Part shown: piece after piece, positions 24,654-40,955 of the stretch
Position numbering within the stretch: position 1 is the first letter of the stretch
Layout: every line of letters begins with the position of its first letter
Assembly (NCBI RefSeq): GCF_024399415.1
Contig: NZ_CP029257.1
Coordinates: 1,015,501 to 1,079,500 of the forward strand
Direction: 5' to 3'
DNA length: 64,000 nucleotides
Source: Streptococcus oralis
GTDB taxonomy: Bacteria; Bacillota; Bacilli; Lactobacillales; Streptococcaceae
The notes under the pieces: generated by a model
Database searches by the model: none
Told to the model about the DNA's origin: nothing
The model's input: the letters and a program-made list of their open reading frames with translations, nothing else
Position numbers and translations under genes: made by a program

Positions 24654-24705
24654 TTAATTACTCTTCACTAATAGACTTACCGCCTCAACGTGGCGCGTCC
24701 GCGGA
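24654..24705 (-). pseudogene. rlmD/rumA 3'-end fragment (scar E6)
   Basis: The minus strand encodes PRTRHVEAVSLLVKSN followed by TAA at 24654. The intact RlmD at 39600 ends FPQTHHVECVALLVKA, so about 16 residues correspond closely (PxTxHVExVxLLVK). Nothing upstream continues the methyltransferase frame. The best explanation is a duplicated target-gene end left by a site-specific integrative element. Confidence 0.7.
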
Positions 24706-24724
24706 ACACAAAAGGTTTGGGGAG

Positions 24725-24749
24725 TTCAAAGCTCCAGTGGAGCTTTGAA
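24725..24749. repeat. Perfect inverted repeat
   Basis: TTCAAAGCTCC and GGAGCTTTGAA flank AGT, giving an 11-bp stem with a 3-nt loop. There is no T run on either side, so it is not a standard terminator. It lies between two rlmD-like tails. Confidence 0.7.
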
Positions 24750-24782
24750 GCCTTCTTACCTTAAAATGAAAAGGTGAGAGGA

Positions 24783-24940
24783 TTAATTCCGTTTCACTAA
24801 CAAGCTTACACACAGCGGTTCGGATTTACCGTATCATCCGTGAAAAAACAATCCTCACGAAATAATGGAAAGTCTTTTGTTTTAATATTGTTCCATTCGT
24901 AAACTGAACCTACAATATCTCCAATAATAGCTCCTAGCAT
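24783..24940 (-). pseudogene. ADP-ribosylglycohydrolase start (copy A) fused to an rlmD-like tail (scar E5)
   Basis: After a good ribosome site (AAGGAGG) the ATG at 24940 opens MLGAIIGDIVGSVYEWNN ... FFTDDTV, the N-terminus of the DraG/ARH ADP-ribosylglycohydrolase family (GDxxG and FTDDT metal-binding motifs; the full enzyme is about 260-300 aa). After TDDTV the sequence changes and the frame stops at 24806. The following bases read VSLLVKRN then TAA (24783) in another frame, like an RlmD tail. The product would be 44 aa and inactive. Confidence 0.7.
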
Positions 24941-24999
24941 GATATTCCTCCTTACAAACTAATGGATAGATTCGTAGTCTCATTCCAACCCAAGCCACT

Positions 25000-25740
25000 T
25001 TAACTGTTTTGCAATAAATCTTGATGGTCAATGGCCCATTGAATCCACTCTGACCACTCCACCGCCAAGTGAATTTGGTGGTCTTTTACAATAGAATTAG
25101 GGCATAACGCCGGAAACTCGACACAAGTGATCGCCTCAATTCCCTGTTCTACATTACGGAATTGATGTCTCACTCCTCCAATAATGGTCCCGTCTTTTAG
25201 TTTTGCAATTCCGACGATTTGATACGGATACTCTTCATCCCGAGGCGTTTGAATTCCCTCTTCTTCGTTAAACTGAATAAAGAATTGCATTGGGAAAGGA
25301 GCATTCCCTGTTTTTTCAATAACCTCTAGTACCTCTTCTCGGGGCACTAAGGCGTAGTGTTCTGGACAAACGGACAAATTGACTTTCAAATTTTCGGGTG
25401 TATTTAGAAACGTAACGTGATCAATCACCTTGCCTAATGTTTCTACATCAATTCCTTCTGCATAAATTTTAGTCATGGCCTTTTTTCTTCTTTTTCCAGA
25501 TAGTGTAGTCGCAATCTTTAGACTGATGTCGCCTAATTTCAGTTGATTCTGAATTTTTGCGACAATCGCATCATATCCTAGCTCCACCTTTTTCTCGATT
25601 AACGCTTCACATAATTGTTCCGTTGACGCTTCCCCATCATAAGAAAGTCCCAAGTTTTTATAAACTGAAATTACGTGTTTTCTTTTCCATTTTTCTAACG
25701 CTTTAGCATCAAAACTTTTTTCATTCATTAGAATATCCAT
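25000..25740 (-). CDS. Hypothetical protein, 246 aa
   Basis: The start is the ATG at 25740 (MDILMNEKSFDAKAL), with GGTGAG upstream; TTG/GTG codons 4 positions earlier are less likely. The N-terminal 60 residues (KALEKWKRKHVISVYKNLGLSYDGEASTEQLCEAL) resemble a SAP-like or LEM-like helical hairpin, as in the preceding gene, which is an explicit SAP protein. The C-terminal part has a VCPEHYALVPREEVLEVIEKTG stretch and ends in VEWSEWIQWAIDH. No named family recognised. It follows the SAP gene by about 100 nt in the same accessory module. Confidence 0.55.
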   Translation of the reverse strand: MDILMNEKSFDAKALEKWKRKHVISVYKNLGLSYDGEASTEQLCEALIEKKVELGYDAIVAKIQNQLKLGDISLKIATTLSGKRRKKAMTKIYAEGIDVETLGKVIDHVTFLNTPENLKVNLSVCPEHYALVPREEVLEVIEKTGNAPFPMQFFIQFNEEEGIQTPRDEEYPYQIVGIAKLKDGTIIGGVRHQFRNVEQGIEAITCVEFPALCPNSIVKDHQIHLAVEWSEWIQWAIDHQDLLQNS

Positions 25741-25838
25741 TTTTCTCACCAACTTTCTTCACGCTTAATCTATCTTTCCTCTATAAACTTTTTAAAGAAA
25801 ATAGAGGCTATCGCTCCACCCACTAAACTAAGAGTTGC

Positions 25839-38588: not shown

Positions 38589-38633
38589 ATACACCTTCTC
38601 TAATAGCTTTTCTTCATTATAACATAGATTGGC

Positions 38634-39020
38634 TTAAAAATAAGGAATGAGCATGAGATTGTGACTATGACTTTTATGCCCACCAAATCCAAACTTACTT
38701 AGTCCATCATTAACAAGCATATCACCGTATCTAATCAACAGGGCTAGGCATTCCTCTCTTGAACAACCATCAATATAATAAACATCCTTATGGGATTCCT
38801 TGATAATATTCTTTGCTATCAGTTTTTCTCTATCAATACTGACAGGCAATTCCAAAAAAAAAAACAATGGCTCGTCATGAATCGCAATAAAGTGTTGAAA
38901 AACCTCTAATATTTTTTCTGCGTGTACATTCGCCGTCAAATGATGTTCAGTTAACTTTGTAAATGATTCAAACAGGTTTTCTACCAAGCTAACTTGGTGA
39001 CCTTTTACTAAATTCAACAT
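38634..39020 (-). CDS. Hypothetical protein, 128 aa, first gene of the alarmone/TCS operon
   Basis: The start is set at the ATG at 39020 (MLNLVKGHQVSLVEN), behind GGAGGACGC; 9 further codons upstream are in frame but unnecessary. The protein is soluble, rich in His and Leu, with LFFFLELPVSIDREKLIA in the middle and a His-Gly-rich end (FGFGGHKSHSHNLML). I do not recognise a family. An extended -10 (TGG TATAAT, 39067-39072) lies 45 nt upstream and should drive the operon. Confidence 0.6.
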   Translation of the reverse strand: MLNLVKGHQVSLVENLFESFTKLTEHHLTANVHAEKILEVFQHFIAIHDEPLFFFLELPVSIDREKLIAKNIIKESHKDVYYIDGCSREECLALLIRYGDMLVNDGLSKFGFGGHKSHSHNLMLIPYF

Positions 39021-39084
39021 TATGCGTCCTCCAGAGAATTTAAACAATATCCAAATTTATAATCTCATTATACCATTAAAACCC

Positions 39085-39119
39085 GAAAAAGACTGAAACT
39101 TCCCAGTCACAGTCTTTTA
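39085..39119 (-). terminator. Hairpin terminator upstream of the alarmone/TCS operon
   Basis: On the minus strand AAAGACTG pairs with CAGTCTTT around a loop of about 14 nt, followed by five T. It would stop transcription coming from the right before the operon promoter. Confidence 0.65.
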
Positions 39120-39550
39120 TCTGAAAGCTAATTCATTCGACTATAAAATGTGATAAGGACTATATTCAACTAATTCAATTAACTTTTTTCAACATGCAAT
39201 AGTATCTGCTGATTAATGTTATAAAACTTTTGAATAGATAAAATACTTCTTCTTTATGTTTATTAGTTTATGTGTTTGTACGGATGAACGTATTTTATCA
39301 TAAAAATTTTCATAGTAACAGTTTCAAAAGAAAGCCAAGACAGATCCGACTTTAATTCCATAGAACGATTTCAGATTGAGTTAGTTATCATAAAACAGAG
39401 TGGCTACGTTTCTATTCCCACAAACTCCTTGTCAATGGAAACAACACTGTATCCCCTAGGGTTTATGGAAATAGATTGAGAACCTATCAGGTTAGCATAT
39501 TAAGACACACAACTTGTATTCTCACTCTGATACTTATCCCCTTTATAACA
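39120..39550. other. Intergenic relic between two terminators
   Basis: About 430 bp with no intact ORF or ribosome site. The stretch 39320-39480 has a less AT-rich, protein-like texture and short open frames broken by stops, as in a decayed gene, but I cannot name it. It lies between rlmD and the first cargo operon, where an element end would be expected. Confidence 0.4.
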
Positions 39551-39574
39551 AAAAGCCTTGCAATCAAGGCTTTT
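39551..39574. terminator. rlmD terminator
   Basis: AAAAGCCTT pairs with AAGGCTTTT (24 nt), about 25 nt after the rlmD stop. Near-identical hairpins occur at 28736-28759 and 30741-30764. Confidence 0.85.
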
Positions 39575-39599
39575 GATTATCCCTTTCGTTATAAGGTTT

Positions 39600-40955
39600 C
39601 TAGGCTTTTACCAGCAAAGCTACACACTCAACATGATGCGTCTGCGGAAACAAGTCCACCGGCTGGACTTTCTTCAAGTCATATCCTAATTCTTGGTAGA
39701 GTTTGATATCACGCGCCATGGTGGCGACATTACAAGAGATATAGGCAATACGATTAGCTCCTGTTTGAGCGCTTGCCTTGATAAAGCTTTCAGTGAGTCC
39801 TTTTCTCGGTGGGTCCACTAATATAACACTTGGTTGAATACCGTCTTTGAGCCAATTCTTCATGGCATTTTCTGCTGTGTCACAGACATAGTGAGCATTT
39901 GTAATATTGTTTAATGCAGCATTCTTCTGGCTATTCTCTACTGCTTCTGGAATCACTTCAACACCGTAGACTTCTTTGACATGCTTGGCGACTGATAAAC
40001 CTATCGTTCCAATTCCTGAGTAGGCGTCAATCACCACATCATCTTCTCTCAACTCTGCAAAGTCAATAGCTGTTTGATAAAGTTTCTCTGCCATTTCAGT
40101 ATTTACTTGATAAAAAGCTGGTCCAGCGATTTGGTAGTTATTTTCCAACATCTGATCCGTAATATAGCCTTGACCATAAAGAGTCTTCCACTCCTTACCA
40201 AAAATCGCATTGGTATTTCGGTCGTTGATATTTTGCATGACAGACACAATCTCTGGGAACTGCTTGATGACTTGTTCAATCAATTGCTCCACTCGGAAAA
40301 CTTTCGGACGAGTTGTTACTAAAATGACCATGATTTGTCCTGAATAGTGCCCGCGACGCACCACAAGATTCCGAATTAAGCCAGACTGCTCCTTTTCATC
40401 ATAAGGTTTCAAATCAAAACGACGGAGCAAATCGCGTAGAGCTACTACGACTTGGTCAATAACAGGATCCTGGATAAAGAAATCTTCAAGGGGCATAAGG
40501 TCGTGCGAATTCTTACGGAAAAAGCCAGTTTCCAAGACACCATTCACTCGACGAACGGGCACCTGTGCCTTATTTCGATACTTGACTGGATGGTCCATAC
40601 CAAGCGTTTCCGCAACCTCTACATCAGCAATTCCTGCAATCTTGTAGAGACTGTCTTTGACTTGCTTACTTTTAAACTTGAGCTGCTCTGGATAGGCAAG
40701 ATGCCCCAAGTCAGCGATTCCTGAACGTAGATAAGCTAGGTCAAGGTCTTGGTTACGATGCGGTGAATGTGTAAGGTATTCTTCAACTTTCCCATAGCCA
40801 ATCTTTTTATTGACTTTAAGGACTCGCATGAGGATTTTCTCAGTTGGTAGAGCATTTTCTACAAAGAAAACCAAACCATCTACCTTGGCAACTCCTGCCC
40901 CTTCATGGGTCAAATCAACAATTTCAACTTCAACAATATCATTTTTCTTTAACAT
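39600..40955 (-). CDS. rlmD: 23S rRNA (uracil-C5)-methyltransferase RlmD/RumA type
   Basis: I prefer the ATG at 40955 (MLKKNDIVEVEIVDL, 451 aa), which matches the family start; a GTG at 40964 is the alternative. The N-terminal TRAM domain (residues 1-60) leads to the SAM-dependent methyltransferase: DAYSGIGTIGLS is the SAM motif, LVDPPRKGL follows, and the nucleophilic Cys is in ISCNVATMARD. It methylates a uracil of 23S rRNA. The ending FPQTHHVECVALLVKA is the known attachment region for rumA-specific integrative elements, and the downstream 15 kb shows the consequences. Confidence 0.93.
   Translation of the reverse strand: MLKKNDIVEVEIVDLTHEGAGVAKVDGLVFFVENALPTEKILMRVLKVNKKIGYGKVEEYLTHSPHRNQDLDLAYLRSGIADLGHLAYPEQLKFKSKQVKDSLYKIAGIADVEVAETLGMDHPVKYRNKAQVPVRRVNGVLETGFFRKNSHDLMPLEDFFIQDPVIDQVVVALRDLLRRFDLKPYDEKEQSGLIRNLVVRRGHYSGQIMVILVTTRPKVFRVEQLIEQVIKQFPEIVSVMQNINDRNTNAIFGKEWKTLYGQGYITDQMLENNYQIAGPAFYQVNTEMAEKLYQTAIDFAELREDDVVIDAYSGIGTIGLSVAKHVKEVYGVEVIPEAVENSQKNAALNNITNAHYVCDTAENAMKNWLKDGIQPSVILVDPPRKGLTESFIKASAQTGANRIAYISCNVATMARDIKLYQELGYDLKKVQPVDLFPQTHHVECVALLVKA

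Follow-up and report, generated by a model that had tools for sequence, protein, structure and literature searches.

The rlmD locus and its displaced endings

The window analysed here is a stretch of 64,000 nucleotides from the complete 2.0-Mb chromosome of a Streptococcus oralis genome (G000; contig NZ_CP029257.1, positions 1,015,501 to 1,079,500), and the subject is the 3' end of its rlmD gene, also called rumA, together with the row of spare rlmD endings and small gene modules that lies behind it. The intact gene (39600..40964, minus strand) encodes a 23S rRNA (uracil1939-C5)-methyltransferase (NCBIfam TIGR00479, 413 bits against a cut-off of 184), and among the named genomes of the collection it is closest to mitis-group streptococci, the top match being a S. 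oralis subsp. tigurinus record with 95% protein identity. Comparison with 80 relatives showed that the last codons of rlmD form a live tail of type VKA, which is followed by a terminator-like repeat (39550..39589, repeat family D3, with further copies at 30740-30779 and 28735-28774). All tails, scars and modules described below for the window lie on the minus strand, downstream of rlmD in its reading direction.

The rlmD region of the window was compared with those of 80 hand-picked relatives, giving 81 loci (handles beginning with L), of which 80 span at least 20 kb and one spans 15 kb. The relatives were chosen from at least 280 of 284 Streptococcus genomes with an rlmD match, mostly as mitis-group contigs without breaks; preference among the first 60 went to genomes matched in an initial search, and weak or empty loci are among the last 20. 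The 65 distinct live rlmD 3' ends, grouped into eleven kinds, served as 44-base queries in an ungapped scan of all 81 loci with a threshold of at least 29/44. Tail coordinates run from the Glu-codon position to the stop, and the sequence in front of a displaced tail is called its arm, with arm classes defined by single-linkage clustering (arm1 is heterogeneous). A tail was said to match a live end when at least 60 aligned bases with at least 75% identity started inside the tail and continued behind it.

It was noted that the window scan yields exactly six displaced tails. The tail nearest rlmD, of type RAEASAK (EAVSLLVRAEASAK, like the others read to its stop; 32130..32174), scores 44/44 and is live in L128, L134, L135, L157, L167 and L193. 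Tail 2, of type FRSETVEK (ECMVLLFRSETVEK; 32004..32048; 38/44), is live in L125 and has 21 displaced matches elsewhere. Tail 3, of type VRAD (DETSLLVRAD; 29789..29821; 39/44), is live in L121 and L136. Two tails of type VKRS follow, namely tail 4 (ECVSLLVKRC; 26530..26562; 39/44), live in L185, and tail 5 (LCVSLLVKRN; 24783..24815; 38/44), live in L119, L122, L132, L137, L141 and L171. Tail 6 (EAVSLLVKSN; 24654..24686; 33/44) has an rlmD-like arm2 in front and two displaced matches elsewhere.

Across the 81 loci, the forward strand gave 343 matches of at least 29/44, of which 81 are the live ends and 262 are displaced, the latter being spread over 69 loci with up to eight in one locus (L152). 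The opposite strand, used as a control, gave three matches at that threshold and none of at least 31. Measured against this control, all six window tails stand above chance, including two that a sequence-only reading of the stretch had called weaker. That reading had placed six rlmD-like tails at these positions, each of which was recovered, and its count proved too low. A worn VKA-type scar with its terminator lies at 28729..28803, and its tail (28771-28803) aligns locally to the live tail with a score of 80, against 30 for the best of 200 shuffles. A second worn VKA-type scar, of which the terminator part is left (30740..30779), aligns both to the live VKA end and to the unit of L124 that joins a VKA tail to open reading frame (ORF) family F3, scoring 60 against 34 for shuffles. 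Both fall below the threshold of the ungapped scan, and a recognised VKA tail precedes the matching cargo in their counterparts in L144 (29/44) and L124. The window thus holds at least eight displaced tails, six clear and two worn.

When the segments were aligned with the rlmD 3' ends of relatives, as the sequence-only reading had suggested, five of the six clear tails, with the sequence that follows them, matched the live end of another genome; tail 6 gave displaced matches only. This bears on whether the tails derive from a repeat that has nothing to do with rlmD or from genes for other methyltransferases. RlmC, RlmD and TrmA share similar C-termini, which could lend that idea some plausibility, but agreement with live rlmD ends that continues beyond the stop refutes it for those five tails, though not for 24654-24686, and we give it next to no credence.

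A sequencing artefact was also considered for tail 2, in which 13 bases (AGATCGGAAGAGC, 32022-32034) match what we take to be a common sequencing adapter (Illumina). This was rejected, since L125 has this sequence as its live end and further genomes contain it too. The bases are genuine, and read-cleaning software could trim them in these species.

Cargo between the endings

The tails separate modules of one to a few genes. The block nearest rlmD (32175..39599, about 7.4 kb, ending in arm1) contains, by Pfam, a RelA/SpoT-domain protein (37965-38594), a response regulator (37286-37972), a histidine kinase (36049-37272) with a partial copy (35071-35682), and an AI-2E-family transporter (33948-35069), in addition to ORFs without assignment at 32666-33964 and 38634-39047. 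A 300-bp histidine kinase stretch occurs twice in this block with 97% identity (35197-35496 and 36259-36558), one copy lying in the partial gene. The starts of tails 1 and 2 are 126 bp apart and enclose a miniature unit whose remainder (32049..32129) ends in arm0.

Behind tail 2 lies a module (29822..32003) with an AAC(6')-family acetyltransferase (31487-31915), an S51-family peptidase (30821-31429) and a CAAX-protease-like gene (29899-30642). The acetyltransferase fits the NCBIfam model for AAC(6') group E aminoglycoside acetyltransferases (191 bits against a cut-off of 140), from which its function is predicted. The module behind tail 3 (26563..29788) carries an alpha/beta hydrolase (28938-29786), a GntR regulator (28203-28583) and an ABC transporter (27362-28210 and 26733-27362), together with a truncated ADP-ribosylglycohydrolase start (28804-28926) recognised by its likeness to two other repeat copies. 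The module behind tail 4 (24816..26529) holds a SAP-domain protein (25839-26456), an ORF without assignment (25000-25752) and another truncated ADP-ribosylglycohydrolase start. Tails 5 and 6, whose starts are 129 bp apart, bound a second miniature unit, the remainder of which (24687..24782) contains a hairpin (inverted repeat I14).

The truncated starts belong to a 145-bp repeat present three times (24809-24953, 26558-26702 and 28795-28939), which covers approximately the first 40 codons of an ADP-ribosylglycohydrolase-like gene with the rest missing; two copies run directly into a clear rlmD scar and one into a worn scar. An ORF seen in relatives (L140:12085-12822) fits the profile of this family at positions 54-283 of 287.

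The relatives' arrays also included defence-like cargo, such as an Abi_2/AbiD-type protein (L140:1281-3065) and a large STAND-ATPase-like protein (L150:15374-19108), and a defence-library scan of the cargo proteins of ten relatives gave one AbiD match besides general ATPase-type matches. An APH-family phosphotransferase was found at L160:7613-8494, and its ORF family occurs in 14 of the 81 loci.

A shared pool of endings, and gain and loss of units

We assessed how endings, arms and cargo are combined among the loci. With the sequence that follows them, 220 of the 262 displaced tails match an rlmD end that is live in a different genome, which means that most blocks once lay first behind rlmD. 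By comparison of the sequences, the tail types are a shared pool that is live in other streptococci, and not one-off contributions from different donors, as had been proposed. Some tails are linked to their cargo: the FRSETVEK tail is followed by an acetyltransferase (GNAT) family in 22 of 22 cases and the VRAD tail by the alpha/beta hydrolase family in 37 of 42 (for these counts the mixed family F2, which holds both the S51 peptidase and the ADP-ribosylglycohydrolase, was divided by length). Arm1 stands in front of seven tail types and arm2 in front of nine, which places the join in those cases between arm and tail. Between the first and last tail, 478 ORFs are co-oriented with rlmD and 68 are opposite, and a terminator-like hairpin was seen by eye behind many live VKA and VKRS ends.

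The interval between the hydrolase family (F1) and the SAP family (F6) could be read in 23 loci. Its spacing is 227-281 bp in 12 loci, 959-961 bp with family F22 inserted (three loci), 1182-1189 bp with family F46 (four), 1900 bp with both (one) and 2482-2488 bp with the ABC module (two loci, one being the window), and an odd case without tails measures 874 bp (one locus). The sizes are additive: the 245 bp of L136, which has no insert, plus 716 and 939 give the 1900 bp of L131, while L121 and L123 measure 961 and 1184 bp. Cassettes are thus, as judged from these spacings, present or absent as whole units. It was also noted that 95 of the 262 gaps are at most 170 bp long, including 31 of 81-83 bp and 54 of 123-131 bp, so that gaps like that between tails 1 and 2 recur across loci; comparable short gaps were read in named loci of S. 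sanguinis (126 bp), S. cristatus (113-124 bp), S. minor (121 bp) and S. macacae (82 bp).

Because cassettes change inside the arrays, as the F1-F6 interval shows, array order is not a plain chronology, and we do not read the six tails as insertions in a strict sequence of time.

The mef/msr element as a test case

An element carrying mef and msr provides joins that can be compared at many places. We took it to be Mega by its gene families, size and target. The 81 loci contain 15 tails of a VKE kind, each with a VKA tail 124 bp further on, and at 14 places the Mef family follows a VKA tail directly. A single representative per gene, taken from L158, scored above the NCBIfam cut-offs (NF000245 for mef and NF000168 for msr). 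Measured from the VKE tail, the tail behind the VKA lies at a distance of 5508-5511 bp in nine of the 15 cases and 4372, 6948, 7075 and 7645 bp in four others, with two lacking a further tail; the size given for Mega in the available part of PMC4321634 is 5,511 bp. Scans of window ORFs with Pfam and NCBIfam revealed neither a mef nor an msr family.

A near-identical left end was located at 50 places in 49 genomes, and 30 left junctions were read and nine right ends fetched. The left junction is CATGTT-GAGGCGG in 30 of 30 places, with the constant part starting CATGTTGAGGCGG, and all nine right ends are constant as far as AGCACA. By our reading, eight of the 30 junctions are at rlmD itself, 11 lie behind array-arm-like sequence (some not close to rlmD), six are at a site A, four at a site B and one is elsewhere. 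The empty form of site B, with the flanks joined by a single CA, is present exactly in 43 of 284 genomes and within three mismatches in 46. Empty site A is exact in 10 of 284 and within three mismatches in 146, the predicted core base itself differing in many of them. Reversed-pattern controls gave 0 for both sites; none of the six genomes in which the element was read in A has an empty A, and an empty B is likewise missing from the four that carry it in B. The junctions and empty sites fit what conservative site-specific insertion at CA would leave.

In the text available from PMC4321634, Mega (mef/mel) is a class IV insertion in rumA at the left end of the pneumococcal island PPI-1, with putative six-base coupling sequences, the target TTTCCNCAA and rumA split by the insertion. 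Our data share with that account the 5.5 kb element and its target, both at rlmD and inside arrays, and TTTCCNCAA belongs to the stretch of rlmD that precedes the join. They differ from it in that the junctions agree with a conservative insertion at CA and that the end of the element restores an rlmD ending (EAVSLLVKE).

These joins were weighed against another explanation, in which the arrays are made and reshuffled mainly by natural transformation and homologous recombination, with the tails as passive repeats in shared flanks. Mitis-group streptococci are naturally competent, and the 145-bp repeats that flank several modules could permit loss or duplication of the kind seen in the F1-F6 interval. 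For the elements treated in PMC4321634, as far as its available text goes, spread by transformation and recombination is likewise preferred to fresh integration. However, new tails replace the rlmD end with few shared bases at the join, two arm classes pair there with seven and nine tail types, and mef/msr insertions elsewhere have precise joins on both sides as well as exact empty sites. We therefore regard this explanation as quite unlikely to account for the arrays.

Recombinases at the junction

In three relatives (L201, L202 and L206) a large serine recombinase gene (PF00239, PF07508 and PF13408) abuts with its 3' end three different recognised tails, and in L203 the same recombinase ends against an SKLD-like ending (ETIVLISKLDSK) that reaches only 26/44. 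Two of the genomes with this integrase element (G093 and G063) carry rlmD on the same contig, with a QRTRG ending, approximately 47 and 57 kb away; in the other two it is on a different contig. In L162, residues 417-584 of the 584 of this serine integrase remain and end at the scar. The gene rumA is described in the available text of PMC4701971 as a target of serine-integrase integrative and conjugative elements (ICEs), with the 3' parts of rumA and the integrase gene being exchanged. The integrase ends at the join in L201, L202, L206, L203 and L162 fit that exchange.

By the sequence that is left, L162 is a truly decayed element, and it lends weight to the proposal that each module is the remnant of a full ICE, integrative and mobilizable element (IME) or prophage that lost its integrase and transfer genes in place, a classical accretion of cis-mobilizable elements (CIMEs) of the type described, in the text available, by PMC5704250. 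Against this, small modules recur across many genomes with additive sizes and so travel as units after any decay. We consider decay in place a possible but doubtful general explanation, although the more probable of the alternatives weighed here. The sequence-only reading had seen the ladder as successive ICEs and IMEs that inserted and decayed. This is partly right, since L162 shows such decay, but most modules are compact, shared by many genomes and without an integrase. Its observation of the tails, and of the rlmD 3' end as the insertion site, was correct and somewhat understated.

A proposed mechanism

We consider it probable that recombination takes place at the 3' end of rlmD and lets small gene cassettes that lack a recombinase build up there, each with its own rlmD ending. 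An incoming cassette would bring an in-frame replacement for the last rlmD codons, and the previous ending, still joined to its cassette, would be pushed downstream. The reaction would be performed by rumA-specific large serine integrases or their relatives, supplied, as we infer, in trans by ICEs and IMEs, and natural transformation may afterwards spread and shuffle the arrays.

Several observations weigh against this proposal. Some concern the parts of the array. Among the 81 loci, 42 of the 262 displaced tails have no live counterpart, including the window tail at 24654-24686, which occurs displaced in two loci. The VKA and VKRS tails precede many different cargos. Arm0 stands in front of three tail types only and never in front of a GAGGC-type tail (0/73), arm3 occurs only with VRAD (16/16) and arm4 only with VKA (15/15), so reassortment is not free for every arm. 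Units of 81-131 bp are hard to picture as excised circles, and inverted symmetry between unit ends was negative (2.92 for the 124-bp class against 2.62 for shuffled sequence, sd 1.32), in a comparison of end symmetry and not a search for attC. Around the CA core, third bases of the live VKRS and VKA ends differ both before and behind it, so their crossover is not at CA and must lie further 3'. Crossover therefore seems to occur, as judged from these variants, at two or more positions separated by a few bases; more than one enzyme is predicted, and a single enzyme explaining all joins is unlikely.

Others concern the enzyme. No recombinase was found in the window array, and a profile search of the window genome found neither a large serine recombinase nor a resolvase, with no match to PF07508 or PF00239. 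Only four of the 81 loci contain sequence homologous to three serine integrases. With the enzyme absent from the array and from its own genome and rare among the loci, the agent is one that we infer. The array of this genome is accordingly predicted to depend on enzymes from elsewhere; PF07508 proteins occur in at least 136 of 284 genomes of the genus, so donors would be at hand. The only two PF00589 (tyrosine recombinase) matches of the window genome, in frames of 361 and 248 residues, are both outside the window; XerS and an XerD-like protein have such sizes. No transfer-gene family was found among 20 window ORFs scanned with Pfam, five of which matched no family.

Relation to known systems

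Three components of this picture are already known, namely rumA as a serine-integrase target, CIME accretion and Mega in rumA. The serine-integrase ICEs and IMEs of rumA (PMC4701971 and PMC5357655, in the parts available) share with the present array the gene, the 3' end and the swapping of the RumA C-terminus, and the element of L201, L202, L203 and L206 has the end of its integrase gene at the junction as they describe. They differ in that the window modules have no detected integrase or transfer gene, that the arms fall into several classes, that crossover seems to use two or more positions, and that the tails form an array of six clear copies here and up to eight in L152. The CIMEs in tandem accretion of PMC5704250, as its available text presents them, likewise consist of units between att-like ends at one site without recombination genes; in the window, too, att-like tails stand at the module borders and no integrase or transfer genes were detected. 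In contrast to those, the present units comprise one to a few genes common to many genomes, show tail-cargo linkage in some types, include miniature units of 81-131 bp and are gained and lost inside the array.

With integrons the array shares cassettes in a row behind a fixed site, mostly in one orientation, and whole-cassette gain and loss. Unlike integrons, no integron integrase is present and no attC has been shown, modules can hold several genes, and it is a housekeeping gene whose end serves as the fixed site; no intI was found beside an attI, the window genome having only the two PF00589 proteins mentioned above. We give roughly even chances to a broader view, an integron-like streptococcal cassette system without its own integrase, in which the rlmD end would be the dock, the spare ending the ticket and the recombinase borrowed from visiting ICEs, with Mega, which confers macrolide resistance, as one cassette and PPI-1, which starts at the same gene, at the same dock. 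No description of the integrase-less array, its spread, the exact mef/msr joins or the place of Mega in it was found in searches of an open-licence library, in which subscription papers are largely missing.

In this interpretation, the scars become a readable record of gene acquisition in human-associated bacteria, and small elements without a recombinase are given a concrete site and join. The mef/msr resistance element would be placed in a family with a testable enzyme, where the earlier account, in the available text of PMC4321634, offered putative coupling sequences. The rlmD gene need not be broken by these insertions; it would be given a new ending each time.

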